From assembly GCA_017630395.1 (NCBI GenBank), contig JAGBVI010000065.1:33114-97113 (forward strand): a DNA stretch of 64,000 nucleotides. The letters are read 5' to 3'. Position 1 is the stretch's first letter. Each line of letters begins with the position of its first letter. A program made the translations under genes and the position numbers. Source of the DNA: Paludibacteraceae bacterium (GTDB lineage: Bacteria; Bacteroidota; Bacteroidia; Bacteroidales; Paludibacteraceae). This document shows positions 52,646 to 59,248 of this stretch, piece after piece. Under the pieces are notes generated by a model. It ran no database searches and was not told where the DNA came from. It saw only the letters and a list, made by a program, of their open reading frames with translations.

Positions 52646-52652
52646 CTCGAAA

Positions 52653-52687
52653 AACAACCTGTCATTTATGGCAGGTTGTTTTTTTTT
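52653..52687 (+). terminator. Terminator of the tRNA cluster
   Basis: AACAACCTG (52653-52661) and CAGGTTGTT (52672-52680) form a perfect 9-bp stem followed by a T-run. Confidence 0.92.
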
Positions 52688-52886
52688 GTAAAAAGTTTAT
52701 GCAGTTTAAAATTTTTTATATTTTTGTTAATGAACGAAGTCAAAATGGAGTGTTTTAGGTTCAGAGTTTTGACAACAATATAAATGGGAGTTTAATAATT
52801 AAATAAGATTGAATTTATTAGTAACGGTAATTTAATAATATATTAAAATATAAAGCATTAGCTATTATTCGCATTCAAAAACAAAA

Positions 52887-53068
52887 GCCTCGGAAACTCT
52901 TGATTTTGAAACTGAAAGAGTAACAAGCTAATTCACGCAGGGCTGTCTGCCCACTGTTGCCTCATATAGAGTTGATGCTCATGCCGATAGGGTGTGGGCT
53001 AATTTCTAATGAGGCAACGGGGTTCACCGAGGCTCCTCGTGAATGCGATAGAAAGGCTCACACCTTTC
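52887..53068 (+). ncRNA. Candidate pseudoknotted RNA leader of the type III RM operon
   Basis: Between the tRNA terminator and mod the sequence is rich in long complementary arms. GCCTCGG (52887-52893) pairs with CCGAGGC (53027-53033). ATTCACG (52931-52937) pairs with CGTGAAT (53038-53044). GGGC/GCCC (52940-52943, 52949-52952) is a short hairpin. GTTGCCTCAT (52956-52965) pairs with ATGAGGCAAC (53009-53018). GGTGTGGGCT (52991-53000) pairs with GGCTCACACC (53056-53065, two G-U). GAAAGG/CCTTTC (53051-53056, 53063-53068) is a local hairpin that competes with the last pairing. The first two stems cross, so a pseudoknot is implied. The rest of 52690-52886 is AT-rich and shows nothing I can name. 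I could not match this to a known riboswitch or ribozyme. Confidence 0.6.
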
Positions 53069-53087
53069 TTTGTTCCTTTTTAGTGAT

Positions 53088-53109
53088 TGATAGTGAAATG
53101 CAACTATCA
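53088..53109 (+). promoter_or_regulatory. Hairpin just before the mod start
   Basis: TGATAGT (53088-53094) and ACTATCA (53103-53109) pair perfectly around an 8-base loop, ending 9 bases before the ATG at 53119. It contains the alternative ATG at 53098 and could influence translation of mod. Confidence 0.5.
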
Positions 53110-53118
53110 GTCAAAATC

Positions 53119-54771
53119 ATGGATAACATCAAAAAAGTAAAAGCAGACTTGATTGCCGAAATCGAGAAACGTGTTTCGGACAGAATTTTGGAGCAGACCA
53201 ATGCAGACTTGCTCATCAAGCTGATTAACAACGCAGACTCGCTCGACGAGGCGATAAATATTGCGGCGCTCGGCACAACCTACAAACGCACCGGCTTGCA
53301 CTTCGACAAACGTCTGGAGAAGATGAGCGACACCATCAAATATTTCAAAAAGAACGAAACGCTCTCTTTTCATACCGACGACAACAAACCTACTCACAAA
53401 CTTATCATAGGCGACAATTACGAAGCGTTGCAAAACCTTCTGATACAATACCGTGGCAAGGTCAATGTGATTTATATAGACCCGCCTTATGGCAAGGACT
53501 CCATGGGCGAATTTGCCGCAACCAACTACAACAACGCCATCACAAGAGACAATCTCCTCTCTATGCTCTACCCTCGTCTGCAACTCGCAAAGCAACTGTT
53601 GAGCGATGACGGGGTGATTTTTTGTTCGATAGACGATAAGAATCAGGCGTATGTGAAGTGTTTGATGGATGAGGTGATGGGGGAAGGTAATTTTATTGCT
53701 TGTGCACCACGAAAAACAGGTGCTGGTGATGCTGCAACAAGATCTTCTTCCGAACTTAGAAAACCTTTTGATTACTTGCTCATTTATAAAAGAGGAAATG
53801 ACACAGAACTGCAAAAGAAAATTGTAGGAGAAAAAGAATATAAATATTGTGACAAGTTGGGTAATTATAAATTGGATAAGTTTCAAGCAAGTGGTTCTGA
53901 CGCTACAAGAAAAGCACGTCCTAATTTATATTATCCAATTTATGTAACTAAAAACAGCTTGTTATCATTAAAAAAGACAGAGGATTGTATAAAAACAATA
54001 TTACCACAAAAAATTAATGGCGAGGATGGTCGTTGGATGTGGAAACCAGAAAAGTTCGAAATAGACAAAGATGATTATCTTTTTTGCGATGGAACATGCA
54101 TTTTTCGTAAGACATATTATGATGAAGAAGAGGACCAAAATATATATCAAGTAGAAAAAGCTTGGATTGATGGAGGCGAATTCCGAAATGCGAAAGGAAC
54201 TTCTGATTTGAGTGAAATAATAAGTAAAAACATATTCAAAAATCCAAAGCCAATAGCTTTAGTTGAGTGGTGTATAAATCTTGTACCTAAAAAGGATAAT
54301 CAAATAATCCTCGATTTCTTTGGTGGTAGTGGTACAACTGGGCATGCTGTTCTTGACCTAAATCGTTCAGAGAAAAAAGAGGGAAATTTACTCGAAGATA
54401 GCCAAGAAGAAGGCAACCGCACCTTTATCCTTTGTCAGCTAAACGAAAAGACAGAGACCACTCCTAACGGCATCGCCTACGATGTGACTTCAAAGCGTCT
54501 TAAACGCATCATGACCGGCGAATGCTACGACGGCACAAAAGACTTTAAGTGGCTCGAAAAGAATGAGCCTTACGGCGGCAATCTTGATGTCTATGAGATT
54601 GACAGCGTGAGCAACTTTGAATGGACAGAGGGCAAAACACCTTTTGACGTGATAGATGAAACACTCTACGGCAAAGAGAAATTTGCGACCGTGAGAGAGA
54701 AGATTGAGTGGGTTTGCGGCAATTTCGACAAAACACAAAAGTATCTGGAAAAGCTAAACGAGGAGGAGTAA
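53119..54771 (+). CDS. Type III restriction-modification methyltransferase (Mod)
   Basis: DNA adenine methyltransferase of the beta class; it sets recognition for both modification and restriction. From ATG 53119 it has 550 residues. The catalytic DPPY is at residues 121-124 (VIYIDPPYGKD), a central target-recognition region spans about residues 195-390, and the SAM-binding FFGGSGTTGHAVLDLN is at about 400-415. This is the order of type III Mod proteins. A longer frame from TTG 52957 runs through the structured leader and is not preferred; ATG 53098 is possible. The outer thirds are GC-rich, whereas the central recognition part is AT-rich, as if that part had been swapped. res follows 3 bases later. 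Confidence 0.93.
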   Translation: MDNIKKVKADLIAEIEKRVSDRILEQTNADLLIKLINNADSLDEAINIAALGTTYKRTGLHFDKRLEKMSDTIKYFKKNETLSFHTDDNKPTHKLIIGDNYEALQNLLIQYRGKVNVIYIDPPYGKDSMGEFAATNYNNAITRDNLLSMLYPRLQLAKQLLSDDGVIFCSIDDKNQAYVKCLMDEVMGEGNFIACAPRKTGAGDAATRSSSELRKPFDYLLIYKRGNDTELQKKIVGEKEYKYCDKLGNYKLDKFQASGSDATRKARPNLYYPIYVTKNSLLSLKKTEDCIKTILPQKINGEDGRWMWKPEKFEIDKDDYLFCDGTCIFRKTYYDEEEDQNIYQVEKAWIDGGEFRNAKGTSDLSEIISKNIFKNPKPIALVEWCINLVPKKDNQIILDFFGGSGTTGHAVLDLNRSEKKEGNLLEDSQEEGNRTFILCQLNEKTETTPNGIAYDVTSKRLKRIMTGECYDGTKDFKWLEKNEPYGGNLDVYEIDSVSNFEWTEGKTPFDVIDETLYGKEKFATVREKIEWVCGNFDKTQKYLEKLNEEE

Positions 54772-54774
54772 GTT

Positions 54775-56808
54775 ATGTTACAACAGGCTAAAGATCTACA
54801 AAACAGAGCGGTGACGCAATTGGTTAGCGCGCTTTCGCAAGGGAAGAAAGAGTACACCTTCCGCGCCCCAACCGGCAGCGGAAAGACCTACATGATGGCA
54901 GACTTCATGAATCGTATCCTTGCCACGCACAGCAATGTGGTCTTCTTGGTTTCGTCGCTCTCCAAAAGCGAGCTGGCGGAGCAGAACTACAACTCCTTTT
55001 GCGCATTGAGCCAGAACGGAACGTTCCCCAATCTGAACCCCCATTTGATAAACTCAGAGACAAGCGGAGAGGGCGCGTTGCATATCCCTACTGACCATAA
55101 CGTCTATGTCTTGCCGCGAGACCTATACAAGGAGAAGAGCCGACTAAAAGAGGAGGGGACTTTTCTGAACTTTCTGCAGACGATGAAAGGAAATTTGTTC
55201 AGCAAAACGGAGGAGAGTTTGGCCGGAAAGATTATCTATGTCATCAAAGACGAGTGTCATATAGCCACATCCAACTTAGATGAATTAGGCAATTACTTTT
55301 CCGTAATTATCAATTTTTCAGCAACGCCCAAGTTGTCCCGAAAACAATTGCCGGATGTAGAAATAACCAATTCAGATGCAGAAGAGGCAAAATTGATTAA
55401 ACAGGTTAAATTTCAGTCAGATACAGATTCGTTAGATGCCGCCCTTGATAAATTTGAAGAGATCAAAGCAGACTATACCAATCACTTGGAGGTAAATCCG
55501 TGCTTCATCATTCAGATTTCAAACAAAGACAAAGCAGAGGAGGAACTGACCAACAATATTTTTCCGGCTCTCGGCAATACAAAGCACCAAGATTTGAAGT
55601 GGGTTTACATCACGGGCGACAAGACTGGCAAAGGATGCAAAACCAATGACTCCGGACTGAACAAATTACCGGTATCAAAATGGAAAGAATATATGAAGCC
55701 CAAAGAATCAAGTATCTCTGTGATTATCTTCAAGATGGTGATTTCAGAAGGGTGGGATATACCTCGTGCATGTATGCTCTATCAGGTGCGAGACACGAAG
55801 AGCAAGCAACTCGACGAGCAAGTTATGGGACGAGTGCGTCGTAATCCACGCTTGTTGGATTTTGAGCATCTCACCAAAGAGGCACAAGATTTAGCTTCTA
55901 CTGCATGGATTTGGGGAATAGCTCCTAAAGAGGCAGGATTGCCCAAACAGGTCAATCTCTACAGAAATTATGATATAGAGAACGAAATCAAAGTAAAAAC
56001 AACAAAGTTGGAAGCGCAAAGAATCAAGGCAGATTTGAACATGACAAAATTGCTTGAAGAAGGAAAGGAGAAGGCAATCGGCGACAATATTTTTGAAATG
56101 TACCGAAAATTTATTCAATGCGAGAACGATATACAAGAACTTTGTTATGAATATGCAGACAGCTATCAAAAGTGGCGTTTGTTTGTTGAGAAAATAGTAG
56201 ATGTCAAGAAAAAATATTACACAGCGATTACTGATTATGAACAAAGCATGTGCGTATGTGAAGAAGCAAGTTTCCCATACGGAAGTAGTTACAATGAAAC
56301 AGACCAGAAGCTGACGATTGATGATTGGGTGTGGTATCGCAAAGAAGACAATATCATCTACGATGAATTTTCGTTTGACAGTGAAGCCGAGAGAAAGTGG
56401 GCAGAAATTTTGAAAGACATCCGTCAGAAGAGCATCAAACAAACCGATGTTTTGGGTGATAATAAGTTTTTGTGGGGTAAAAATTTTCCACTCAACTCAG
56501 AAATCAAGTTTGAATATTTTTCGGATGGTATTCACACCTCCTATCCGGATTTTGTGATGAAAGATACCCAAGGTCGCATTCACATTTTTGAAGTAAAGAG
56601 TGTAAACAAATCCTCATCGCTCAACATCAACGAAGAGGAGTATAAGGAAAAAATACGCTCCTTAAAAGAGTGTTACAAAGCCTGTTCAAAAAAGACGGAG
56701 CATATTTTTTATCTTCCAATTTTAGAAGGGAATACATGGAAAATCACAAAATTTGAAAAAGGGGAGGAGACAACGATAGATTTGCGTCAGTTTAGAGATA
56801 ATTTGTAA
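54775..56808 (+). CDS. Type III restriction enzyme helicase/nuclease subunit (Res)
   Basis: ATP-dependent restriction subunit that acts with Mod on unmodified DNA. The 677-residue protein has an SF2 helicase core with Walker A APTGSGKT (residues 31-38), the Walker B/motif II box DECH (159-162, where DEAH or DEPH is more common), FSATPK (motif III) and VMGRVRRNPR (motif VI). A C-terminal PD-(D/E)XK nuclease follows (SYPDFVMKDTQGRIHIFEVKSVNK). It is shorter than the roughly 970-residue EcoP15I Res but has all the expected parts. The first 500 bases are GC-rich and the rest AT-rich. Confidence 0.92.
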   Translation: MLQQAKDLQNRAVTQLVSALSQGKKEYTFRAPTGSGKTYMMADFMNRILATHSNVVFLVSSLSKSELAEQNYNSFCALSQNGTFPNLNPHLINSETSGEGALHIPTDHNVYVLPRDLYKEKSRLKEEGTFLNFLQTMKGNLFSKTEESLAGKIIYVIKDECHIATSNLDELGNYFSVIINFSATPKLSRKQLPDVEITNSDAEEAKLIKQVKFQSDTDSLDAALDKFEEIKADYTNHLEVNPCFIIQISNKDKAEEELTNNIFPALGNTKHQDLKWVYITGDKTGKGCKTNDSGLNKLPVSKWKEYMKPKESSISVIIFKMVISEGWDIPRACMLYQVRDTKSKQLDEQVMGRVRRNPRLLDFEHLTKEAQDLASTAWIWGIAPKEAGLPKQVNLYRNYDIENEIKVKTTKLEAQRIKADLNMTKLLEEGKEKAIGDNIFEMYRKFIQCENDIQELCYEYADSYQKWRLFVEKIVDVKKKYYTAITDYEQSMCVCEEASFPYGSSYNETDQKLTIDDWVWYRKEDNIIYDEFSFDSEAERKWAEILKDIRQKSIKQTDVLGDNKFLWGKNFPLNSEIKFEYFSDGIHTSYPDFVMKDTQGRIHIFEVKSVNKSSSLNINEEEYKEKIRSLKECYKACSKKTEHIFYLPILEGNTWKITKFEKGEETTIDLRQFRDNL

Positions 56809-56814
56809 ATTTCA

Positions 56815-56866: not shown

Positions 56867-57550
56867 TTATCGCAAAGCTTCAATTTCCTCCTTAGAGAGT
56901 CCCGAAATTTCAGCAATCAAGTCGATGCTCATTCCCATATTTAGCATCTTTTTAGCTGTTTCAATCTGATTCTCTTTTTTTTCCTCAACATGTCCTTCAG
57001 CATGTCCTTCGGCGTGTCCCTTTGCGTGAGCCTCTGCGGCGATTTTCACCTTTGCCTCCTCCAGCATCTCCTCGAAGTTGATTTCATCCTCAATAGCTTT
57101 CAGTCCGGCTTCATAGCGCGCAAGTTCATCATCTGTAAGATTACAGAATTGCGCTCGCTCGATTAGCTCCAATAGGGCGGGATCGGCTTTTTCATATACC
57201 GAAGGACTAATTTTATACATACGCTCTCCTAAGTTTTTGATAATTTCTATCCAACAATCTTTTGATGAGGGTTGTTCGATTTTTGCGAAGTCGAAATTCT
57301 CCAAAATGATGAAGTATTTCCGCATTCTATCCCAAAACTGAACTTTGTCGATTCGGTCGAACTCTTCCGTCTCCACAATGGATTTTCTCTCGTTACCAAA
57401 CCTTTTGTTGAGGAAGAATACCCCAATCAGATGGGGAATATCTTCTTTCATCTTGTTCCAATTGTCACCACGGTTTAAAACCTTGCTCATCAGGGTGTAA
57501 AGGTAGTAATTTGCCCGTGTTTTGAAAAATAATTGCGAATAATTTTGCAT
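56867..57550 (-). pseudogene. Truncated Rpn/PD-(D/E)XK transposase-family gene
   Basis: 227 residues matching the C-terminal part of the PD-(D/E)XK nuclease (Rpn, YhgA-like) family: a region resembling YSQLFFKTRANYYLYTLMSKVL, then VIGVFFLNKRFG-type strands, an acidic helical section (TDDELARYEAGLKAIEDEINFEEMLEEAK), a tandem AKGHAEGHAEGHVEEKK stretch and a short SGLSKEEIEAL end. The N-terminal nuclease motifs (Asp and ExQ) are missing, and the bases upstream of 57550 do not encode them in any frame I checked. It is therefore a truncated remnant, though its reading frame is intact. It converges on res. Confidence 0.7.
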
Positions 57551-57825: not shown

Positions 57826-58155
57826 ATGAAAATTATTTTCAAAGATGAAGCGTTATCCCAATTGTATTCAAACGGTAAAACCGAAGACCGAAAGTATAAG
57901 AAACTTTGCAAGAACAAGAAGTTGGTTGAAGGTTACCAAAGAGCTGTCTCCATTATGTACGATGTGGATTCAACAGAAGAACTCAGGCCTTTCAGTTTTC
58001 TTCACTACGAAAAACTGAAGTACATGAAAGAACCTTTAAGCTCTGTGAGACTGGTGAACGGAATGGTTGAACGATTGTTATTTACAGAAACGGAGGACTG
58101 CATCGAAGTTGAACTTTTAGAAATAGATAGCACTCATTATGGCAACAAGAAGTAA
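57826..58155 (+). CDS. HigB/RelE-like toxin
   Basis: 109-residue small basic protein of the RelE/HigB-type toxin fold, whose family members cleave mRNA at the ribosome. It contains KKLCKNKKLVEGYQRAVSIMYDVDSTEELRPFSFLHYEKLKY, RLVNGMVERLLFTE and an EVELLEID strand near the end. ATG 57826 is used; a TTG three codons earlier is possible. Its stop overlaps the antitoxin gene by 17 bases, a tight toxin-first HigBA order. The exact catalytic residues were not identified by eye. Confidence 0.82.
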   Translation: MKIIFKDEALSQLYSNGKTEDRKYKKLCKNKKLVEGYQRAVSIMYDVDSTEELRPFSFLHYEKLKYMKEPLSSVRLVNGMVERLLFTETEDCIEVELLEIDSTHYGNKK

Positions 58156-59248
58156 CCGAATAGTTCCTGCCAGGGCAATCCACCCGGGAGAAATCTTGCG
58201 TGAAGAGTTGCAGGAACGTGGTATCAAACAAAAAGATTTTGCCCAAGCAATTGGCGTACAGGCGACCCACCTGAATGAATTCATCAAAGGAAAGCGAAAC
58301 CTGAATGAAGAACTAGCTATGAAGCTGGAATCTCAGTTAGGTATTCCATACAAGACTTGGATGAATCTGCACAACGGCTACATTTATGAATGCAAGGCTT
58401 TGGATGAAAAGAGAACAGAAGAACAGTATGCTCTTCAATTTGAAGATGCGTGTGCAAACATCTTTAATATTCAAGCCTTGTATAAACGTTTGGGGCTTAT
58501 AATGTTGTCTTGTTCGGAAAGAGTGAAGAGACTAAAAGAGTTGTTTTCATTTGACTTGCTCTCATCCAATGAACTCCGATTGCAGGTCGCTGGCATGTAC
58601 AAGCACAGCGAAAAGGTGCAGATGGATGAAAAGAACATGCTGACTTGGCTTATCCTCAACAAACTTGAAATCTCCCGTATCCAGCCATTGGACAATTACC
58701 AGAAGGGAAATGCCATAAAAGCGGCTGAGGTCATCGCACGCATGGCCAACGAAAGAGCGCTTACGACTGAATCCATCAAAGAATGCCTGAATGGCTATGG
58801 CATATCTTACATTAAGGTGGAGAAACTGGACAAGACTCCGATTGATGCTTATTCAACTTTCACTGGGGACATGCCGGTCATCACCGTAACTTACCGCTAC
58901 AATGACATGGACAAACTGGCATTTGATATTCTCCATGAGTTATGCCATATAGATCGCCACTTCTCGGAAGGGAACAAGGCATTCATTTCTATTGAAGGTA
59001 TCGAATACTCCAATGACCCGAGAGAGAAAGAGGCAAACGAGTTTGCAAGACAGATGCTCATACCTGATGAAACATGGGAAAACATCCTTAAAGTGGGATG
59101 TACAAGCCTTTCACCTTATAAGATTGTGAAGACCATTGCAAAAGAAGCCGAACGATGCGGTGTCAGTCCGTCCATCGCCATTTCGCGATATAAGCGTGAC
59201 ACCAATTGGTATCGCACATCCGCTTATAAATCTCCAAAGATATTCTGA
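58139..59248 (+). CDS. HigA antitoxin fused to ImmA/IrrE-type metallopeptidase domain
   Basis: 369-residue protein. An N-terminal Xre/HigA helix-turn-helix at about residues 10-75 (RAIHPGEILREELQERGIKQKDFAQAIGVQATHLNEFIKGKRNLNEELAMKLE) is followed by a long helical linker. Then comes a zinc-peptidase-like domain at about 240-330 with HELCH (about residues 266-270, fits HExxH) in AFDILHELCHIDRHFSEG and EANEFARQMLIP. The HTH should repress the operon and bind the toxin. The protease domain could degrade a partner or cleave the repressor, as in ImmA systems. The overlap with the toxin gene supports pairing. Confidence 0.88.
   Translation: MATRSNRIVPARAIHPGEILREELQERGIKQKDFAQAIGVQATHLNEFIKGKRNLNEELAMKLESQLGIPYKTWMNLHNGYIYECKALDEKRTEEQYALQFEDACANIFNIQALYKRLGLIMLSCSERVKRLKELFSFDLLSSNELRLQVAGMYKHSEKVQMDEKNMLTWLILNKLEISRIQPLDNYQKGNAIKAAEVIARMANERALTTESIKECLNGYGISYIKVEKLDKTPIDAYSTFTGDMPVITVTYRYNDMDKLAFDILHELCHIDRHFSEGNKAFISIEGIEYSNDPREKEANEFARQMLIPDETWENILKVGCTSLSPYKIVKTIAKEAERCGVSPSIAISRYKRDTNWYRTSAYKSPKIF

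Follow-up and report, generated by a model that had tools for sequence, protein, structure and literature searches.

Among described leader elements, EAR and ops with RfaH precede surface-polysaccharide operons. For restriction systems, it is a long-standing question how they stay harmless on arrival and are tuned later. The parts of PMC3874152 drawn on here describe control exerted by the modification enzyme itself, by a protein linked to it, or by antisense RNAs of single systems, and in the EcoRI and Eco29kI restriction-modification systems these antisense RNAs arise from reverse promoters within the one system. Structured RNAs of the Bacteroidetes were collected in a 2010 survey, whose motifs include, in the portion of PMC2864571 used here, Bacteroidales-1, Bacteroides-1, Bacteroid-trp, Flavo-1 and 6S-flavo. 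Here we analyse a leader in a 64,000-nucleotide stretch of Paludibacteraceae DNA (the window), which lies directly upstream of the type III methyltransferase gene mod.

Results

The leader and its helices

The preliminary description had placed four long pairings and local hairpins upstream of mod, and all of them are present there. Its start at 52887 has to be moved outwards, as the conserved element begins at window 52855 with an unpaired segment. This 5' edge begins GCATTAGCTATTATTC, which is identical in 17 of 17 homologues aligned with their flanks but not in the wider set, where the unpaired segment varies somewhat (e.g. GCATTGGC or GCATTAC) and short forms of the RNA open with GCGTTAGCTTTTATTC-like sequence. 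The 3' edge in the homologues aligned with flanks is the U-tract at 53065-53071. Two covariance models were used, R1 (17 sequences, hand-drawn structure) and R2 (91 sequences). With R2, whose training set includes the window copy, the core at 52855-53071 (+) scored 197.4 bits (cmsearch, E 6.1e-46). The 196-nt stretch 52880-53075 has a minimum free energy of -77.6 kcal/mol (z = -6.06), and 0 of 200 dinucleotide shuffles were as low. A TTG-initiated frame spans the leader, but its translation as part of Mod was rejected as unlikely, because relatives vary there by compensatory, helix-preserving changes and by indels.

Pairing was counted in an alignment (A3) of 91 rows, 89 of them distinct. In A3, which was aligned to a hand-drawn structure of P0, P1, P3, P4 and P5 and favours those helices, PK2, P6 and PKa being absent from the model used, the six helices P0, P1, P3, P4, PK2 and P6 (44 pairs) had 90.6% of cells paired versus 72.0% in shuffles, 41 of the 44 pairs changed on both sides, and a covariation of 0.543 versus 0.226 in shuffles. 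Controls in which the same six helices were slid gave 36-50% paired cells. APC-corrected covariation, computed on A3 itself with the 80 rows left after removal of near-duplicates at 93% identity, placed the top 22 of all column pairs in P0, P1, P3, P4 and P5; pairs of PK2, P6 and PKa ranked lower, mixed with non-helix pairs. With PKa left aside, G.U cells exceed A.C cells by 521 to 41 in A3, which points to the + strand as the folding strand. PKa is the weaker helix, with 47 A.C versus 22 G.U cells.

Each of the four long helices first described (P1, P4, PK2 and PKa) has pairs changed on both sides in A3. The fold is therefore real in the sense claimed, all four pairings recurring in relatives with compensatory changes. 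The set needs amending in two respects: the outer helix P0 (52869-52876 with 53041-53048) had been missed, and not all pairs can coexist, because P0 and PKa, like P5 and PK2, share strands and cannot form simultaneously. Judged by comparison of homologous sequences, the leader is a structured, multiply pseudoknotted RNA and very probably regulatory, as had been proposed. Table 1 lists its parts and the genes behind it.

Table 1. Features of the leader and the adjoining operon, in window coordinates. Paired cells and changed pairs refer to alignment A3.
Feature	Position	Strand	Basis
Conserved RNA core, whole model (model position n = window 52854+n)	52855..53071	+	R2 score and homologues
Conserved unpaired 5' segment GCATTAGCTATTAT	52855..52868	+	positions 1-16 invariant in 17/17 rows
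P0 5' strand TCGCATTC, partner 53041-53048	52869..52876	+	99.7% of cells paired; 7/8 pairs changed on both sides
P1 5' strand AGCCTCGG (GCCTCGG/CCGAGGC), partner 53027-53034	52886..52893	+	95.7% paired; 8/8 changed on both sides
PKa 5' strand ATTCACG, partner 53038-53044 (CGTGAAT), rival of P0	52931..52937	+	76.8% paired (four pairs), 85.2% (three pairs)
P3 local hairpin (GGGC..GCCC)	52940..52952	+	87.4% paired
P4 5' strand, very variable, partner 53009-53018 (GTTGCCTCAT/ATGAGGCAAC)	52956..52965	+	83.8% paired; 9/9 counted pairs (of 10) changed on both sides
P5 hairpin GCTCATGCC..GGTGTGGGC (52977-52985 with 52991-52999); 3' strand common to PK2	52977..52999	+	97.1% paired
P4 3' strand	53009..53018	+	A3 pairing counts
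P6 hairpin (CGGGG..CCTCG), P1 3' strand in loop (pseudoknot)	53018..53039	+	79.4% paired; innermost pair fails in 38/89
P1 3' strand CCGAGGCT	53027..53034	+	A3 pairing counts
P0 3' strand GAATGCGA; GAAT common to PKa	53041..53048	+	A3 pairing counts
PK2 3' strand GGCTCACACC (GGTGTGGGCT/GGCTCACACC), partner 52991-53000, rival of P5	53055..53064	+	91.8% paired; 9/10 pairs changed on both sides
U-tract (TTTCTTT), directly 3' of PK2	53065..53071	+	at least 5 T in 8 nt in 150/150 distinct copies
Pre-start hairpin GATTGATAGT..ACTATCAGTC, end 6 nt 5' of mod ATG	53085..53112	+	stem counts in copies
mod, type III DNA methyltransferase; possible in-frame start 53098	53119..54771	+	Pfam N6_N4_Mtase; PADLOC MTase_III 6e-68
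res, type III restriction subunit	54775..56808	+	Pfam ResIII; PADLOC REase_III 8e-24

Competing pairings and the terminator-like end

In model numbering, residues 137-145 have two conserved partners, the upstream strand of P5 (97.1%) or the U-tract-adjacent strand of PK2 (91.8%). Residues 187-190 likewise pair with 19-22 (P0, 99.7% for the helix) or with 77-80 (PKa, 76.8%; the three pairs below, 85.2%), and positions 21, 79 and 188 change together, reading TTA in 45 of 89 rows and CCG in 18 of 89. A single static fold was rejected, since two strands each own two covarying, mutually exclusive partners, and we read the RNA as having two states.

Two features of attenuators were found, namely mutually exclusive conserved helices (P5/PK2 and P0/PKa) and a terminator-like helix followed by a U-tract. 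The strands of PK2 are separated by ~55 nt, which is unlike the usual short-loop terminator. A control stretch placed 30 nt further upstream never exceeds 4 T per 8 nt in the 150 distinct copies. A small AAAGG/CCTTT hairpin of the window was rejected as a conserved terminator, because it is lost in part of the family (e.g. L090) while PK2 and the U-tract are kept. The helix pairs with shared strands, together with a U-tract in every distinct copy, suggest an attenuator.

Drawing on these features and on those of the genes and flanks described below, we consider it reasonably likely that the RNA is a new family of cis-acting, two-state, attenuator-like mRNA leaders for unrelated barrier genes. 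In one state, the 3' strand of P5 and the U-tract-adjacent strand would form PK2, which with the U-tract would act as an intrinsic terminator and stop transcription before the gene. In the other, the P5 hairpin would hold its 3' strand and polymerase would read through. The choice between the two would be tuned to a signal by the RNA body, comprising P0-P4, P6 and the unpaired segments that are conserved, and translation would be controlled additionally by the hairpin preceding the start codon. One such leader would serve many barrier genes, for DNA methylation/restriction or surface-glycan enzymes, and would be exchanged with them or kept as genes swap.

Genes behind the leader

The operon of the window is a type III restriction-modification system with both Mod and Res subunits (PADLOC, Pfam); mod probably starts at 53119, with an in-frame ATG also at 53098. 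On the 3' side of the operon lie a PDDEXK_2-family transposase-like gene (window 56867-57550, -) and an HTH plus IrrE-like gene (58139-59248, +).

Genes were surveyed at 179 loci holding 150 distinct cores: 91 first-round loci (20 from BLAST, 11 from R1 and 60 hand-picked for diversity from the R1 matches listed), 18 from the search of the order and 70 of 73 genome-record matches. Left out were short forms and repeats from the order search and three genome-record matches, two of which are truncated at the end of their sequence and one of which is a double on the reverse strand; among the loci kept, L098 is a short form and L198 is weak. Genes were clustered by BLASTP and named by Pfam on cluster representatives, L098 and L203 lying outside the Pfam scan. 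Among these loci, which were chosen by likeness to the RNA, lean to relatives of the window copy and are those to which the enrichment applies, 111 of 147 genes belong to DNA methylation/restriction (types I, II, IIG and III), 27 are surface/envelope genes, 6 are small HTH genes and 3 are other.

The methylation/restriction class is dominated by EcoRI-type adenine methyltransferases (87). The remainder comprises MmeI-type IIG (4), type I (4), type III Mod (2), D12-class (3), Tsp45I (1), a ResIII-HNH helicase-nuclease (1), C5-plus-Eco57I fusions (2), L055 and kin (N6/N4; 2), L181 and kin (3; no Pfam family of their own, a DCCAGTGN and an NPPY motif seen by eye) and L113/L180 (2; also without their own Pfam family, the next gene of L113 being an Eco57I-type methylase). 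Surface/envelope genes encode sulfatase-fold proteins akin to EptA and LtaS (11, below NCBI cut-offs), acyltransferases (5), GT2 (4), DUF2334 deacetylase-like (3), GINT1-like (2), GT25 (1) and GT1-like (1, below the Pfam cut-off) proteins. The tie to type III systems drawn in the preliminary description is not supported, because the same RNA precedes several methyltransferase/restriction types and surface-glycan genes. The target genes have no metabolite in common, and the gene content suggests no single one.

The gene following the EcoRI-type methyltransferase was readable in 71 of 87 cases. It resembles a PADLOC type II restriction enzyme in 59 of the 71 (Pfam GmrSD_N plus HNH in two members examined) and does not in 12, so some of these methyltransferases may be solitary. 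When EcoRI-type loci were instead sought by Pfam in 61 genomes, 19 of the 30 found had the RNA and 11 did not; several of the latter are contig-end fragments, three come from the window's own genome, and at the long genes L311, L312, L318 and L319 R2 gave no match. Contig C113 of the window's own genome carries three EcoRI-type methyltransferase genes (L313, L321 and L324) in loci without an R2 match.

The gene content bears on a second explanation, that the RNA brings a NusG paralogue or other antiterminator protein to polymerase and promotes read-through of the operon, with no small ligand being sensed. Surface/envelope genes, 27 of 147, rank second among the classes, leader elements are known before surface-polysaccharide operons, and a conserved unpaired 5' segment would suit such recruitment. 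Against this, the EcoRI-type targets seem to form units of one or two genes and not long operons, the two competing pairings by the U-tract suit a local attenuator at least equally well, and no Rfam match was obtained, JUMPstart included. We regard protein recruitment as rather unlikely.

Upstream signals, the pre-start hairpin and spacing to the gene

A TAnnTTTG box, which we take to be the Bacteroidetes -7 element, lies at most 130 nt upstream of the RNA in 82 of the 141 copies having 250 nt upstream, versus 8.65 in mononucleotide shuffles, with a peak 60-79 nt away. The window's candidate box (52719-52726) is farther from the RNA than this peak, and a sigma-70 scan gave no useful promoter. 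In many copies of one genus (L069, L077, L079, L081, L087, L088, L108 and others), the upstream flank has a GCGCAAAGCGTTGCGC-like hairpin followed by a ACATATTAACA-like stretch and then the core.

On the 3' side, an uninterrupted stem of at least 9 bp occurs within 60 nt of the RNA in 127 of 149 copies versus 7.1 of 149 dinucleotide shuffles. By a laxer criterion, which 98 of 150 mononucleotide-shuffled sequences also pass, TTGATAG lies inside 103 of 144 pre-start stems and the next in-frame ATG is -1 to 8 nt from the stem in 106 of 144; L091, L107, L131 and L197 keep the stem with mostly different letters. In the window, the loop of this hairpin contains an ATG (53098) that shares its frame with the mod ATG (53119), 21 nt further on. 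In many relatives this position is taken by a TGCRCAAA-like loop, some with ATG and some with TTG.

An open reading frame that has 40 aa or more, or that runs off the end of the sequence, starts at most 130 nt downstream in 147 of 150 distinct copies, at a median distance of 44 nt (middle half 37.5-47). As for the other three, L071 shows none, and the sequence still available is just 35 nt at L174 and 219 nt at L187. This arrangement is one-sided: frames of 150 aa or more begin no further than 130 nt away in 133 of 144 copies on the downstream side versus 3 of 131 on the opposite side, and those of 40 aa or more in 143 of 144 versus 41 of 131.

The preliminary description had also allowed for an independent non-coding RNA, which in its explicit form would be a small RNA ending at the U-tract and acting in trans, the gene being reached by read-through or from a second promoter. 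Its strong fold, the terminal U-tract in 150 of 150 copies and the finding of RNAs up to 99% identical between unrelated upstream sequences would fit. What makes an independent RNA less likely is the start of an open reading frame at a narrow distance and on one side only; in addition, a hairpin stands right before the start codon, and the copies in G378 precede different genes (L034 and L058). We judge it improbable.

Exchange of leader and genes

Comparison of the window with a locus of the same genus (G006) illustrates how genes can change behind the leader. The stretch of mutS, tRNAs and leader is 92-94% identical and the DNA from window 56810 on is 94.6% identical, and between ~53103 and the res stop at 56808 the window has type III and G006 type I genes behind the same leader. 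The breakpoints, 53103 in the pre-start hairpin and 56808-56810 at the res stop codon, make this a nearly exact swap of the coding region. G015 carries, at this tRNA site too, a short form of the RNA (41.6 bits) before a different type III system. In this copy (L277:1764-1971), a 21-nt copy of the 5' part of the RNA (GCAACAGAAATTTCGCCAAAA) abuts the start codon and could compete for the 3' strands of P0 and P1. Direct repeats shared by RNA and start region were rejected as a general device, as only L277 among 164 sequences has a long one (21 nt; the next two, 12 nt). In seven other loci of the genus with some kilobases past the tRNAs, the RNA search was negative at E up to 0.1, and no restriction genes were recognised by eye.

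Across the family, 68 of 184 pairs of cores at least 85% identical precede different gene clusters. Among 115 pairs at least 88% identical and with enough upstream sequence, the upstream 150 nt are less than 0.55 identical in 87 and at least 0.8 identical in 19, and RNAs up to 99% identical were found between unrelated upstream sequences. Ungapped identity in those 87 pairs is ~0.2-0.8 before the RNA, 0.9-1.0 from its first base, and falls after the U-tract. Gapped BLAST extends the homology 14-100 nt upstream of the RNA start in pairs with unrelated flanks, which shows that the left border is not exact. Among 19 pairs read in detail, some share leader and gene between unrelated flanks (L155/L183 and L073/L079), and others share the upstream side and leader and differ in the gene (L051/L058 and L063/L162); recombination within the leader would explain the latter. 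The copies in G378 precede an EcoRI-type gene at L034 and a type I gene at L058. On the RNA tree we counted 24 changes of class and 51 of gene cluster, a descriptive count made with no shuffled control.

Such mobility raises the question of a DNA-level exchange site, that is, a folded recombination or insertion site carrying cassettes, for which the fold of the transcript would be secondary. Genes swapped behind a fixed leader, and the 87 of 115 similar RNAs with dissimilar upstream DNA, are what such a site would give. The helices nevertheless keep G.U over A.C (521 versus 41, without PKa), which favours RNA, the homology runs 14-100 nt beyond the RNA start with no exact left border, and an unsystematic look noticed no adjacent recombinase or right-hand motif. 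A DNA site therefore seems very improbable.

Distribution and relation to known families

The window's own genome has one copy, the remaining 13 BLASTN matches being chance-sized. With a 251-base query against 101 genomes, BLASTN found further long matches, those listed reaching down to 69% identity, and 19 loci with E up to 3.7e-11 were used. Within the window's family, R1 had matches in 160 of 358 genomes, spread over 19 of 33 genera (E up to 0.01, training sequences included). R2 found the RNA in 64 of 393 genomes sampled from the order and, counting the genome of the window, in 6 of 395 sampled from the phylum. Among named genome records, 80 loci were listed for the exact 5' pattern, and R2 matched 72 of them (E up to 1e-4); two of the 72 are truncated at the end of their sequence, and L198 is weak (31.9 bits). 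These 72 records are assigned to Bacteroidales, Bacteroidia, Paludibacteraceae, Salinivirgaceae, Bacteroidaceae, Prevotella or Ca. Colimorpha, and rumen or gut is the source of many. The 8 with the pattern and no R2 match are from Endozoicomonas, two Pelagibacter-type records, Methanobrevibacter, Rhodobacteraceae, Butyrivibrio, Neolewinella and Saprospiraceae.

The order also contains a short form of ~152-170 nt that lacks the P2/P3 arm, and five genomes of the phylum draw show it in further families of the class. Some genomes have several copies, with five listed places in G529. Nine of the 14 short-form loci read (L098 and L137-L149, of which L149 lay below the search cut and was read via genome coordinates) have a signal-peptide- or lipoprotein-like gene at most 90 nt away, as judged by eye.

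Rfam 15 gave no match on the element at the gathering threshold in the window and 25 further loci, with ribozymes and JUMPstart (RF01707) included. Elsewhere in those loci the matches were tRNAs, together with RNase P in L107. With E allowed up to 10, window 52650-53250 gave 13 weak matches on the hairpin after the tRNA genes and an S15-leader match from 53071 on (19.8 bits versus a threshold of 39.5). Membership of a known RNA family was rejected on these searches, as the preliminary description had anticipated, and none of the outcomes it had named as counting against its proposal (no compensatory changes, an Infernal match, translation within Mod) was borne out. Nested pseudoknots occur in some ribozymes, but a self-cleaving or otherwise catalytic RNA is extremely unlikely with no Rfam match, ribozymes included, on the element.

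A structured leader of restriction-modification genes was not found in the literature searched, the 2017 survey of 224 motifs lying outside the comparison. As far as Rfam 15 at the tested loci and this literature go, the leader RNA is an undescribed family. The window leader had no blastn match in 72,556 plasmid and 50,697 phage records, a search that divergent copies could escape. The 5' pattern occurs in 5 viral contigs, none convincing, of which only L290 scores (23.5 bits over 53 nt). Neither search supports a phage or plasmid origin.

Discussion

We conclude that the leader probably works as a common on/off switch for genes that keep out foreign DNA and viruses. Its proposed role in delaying restriction or sensing phage is a guess. 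A broader and more tentative possibility is a barrier regulon, in which one RNA family would throttle several methylation/restriction types and surface-glycan enzymes on one cue (infection, envelope damage or DNA uptake), while its DNA would double as a homology arm for plugging in new barrier genes.

If the attenuator-like leader is borne out, its being common to unrelated methylation/restriction and surface-glycan genes would be a general RNA-level answer to the question of how restriction systems are kept harmless and tuned. Adsorption and restriction, two lines of defence, would fall under one kind of switch. It could also explain how such genes can be exchanged with no need for new regulation to evolve.

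The closest likeness is to riboswitches and intrinsic-terminator attenuators, which share with this leader a structured 5' region, mutually exclusive helices, one of them by a U-tract, and a narrow distance to the start codon. The present leader differs from them in having no Rfam 15 match and in that no pathway or metabolite unites its targets. JUMPstart/ops with RfaH and EAR are also leader elements preceding surface-polysaccharide genes, whereas the element described here is ~210 nt long, multiply pseudoknotted, found in Bacteroidales and mostly placed before DNA methylation/restriction genes, with no match to RF01707. The antisense control of EcoRI and Eco29kI, as described in the parts of PMC3874152 drawn on, is similar in acting at the RNA level on a restriction-modification system; here, in contrast, the RNA is a structured sense leader common to unrelated systems. 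The Bacteroidetes motifs of 2010 are, like this one, structured RNAs of the same phylum obtained by sequence comparison. They differ in that the main text of PMC2864571, the part of that source considered, contains neither 'restriction' nor 'methyltransferase', and those motifs with Rfam models gave no match on the element.
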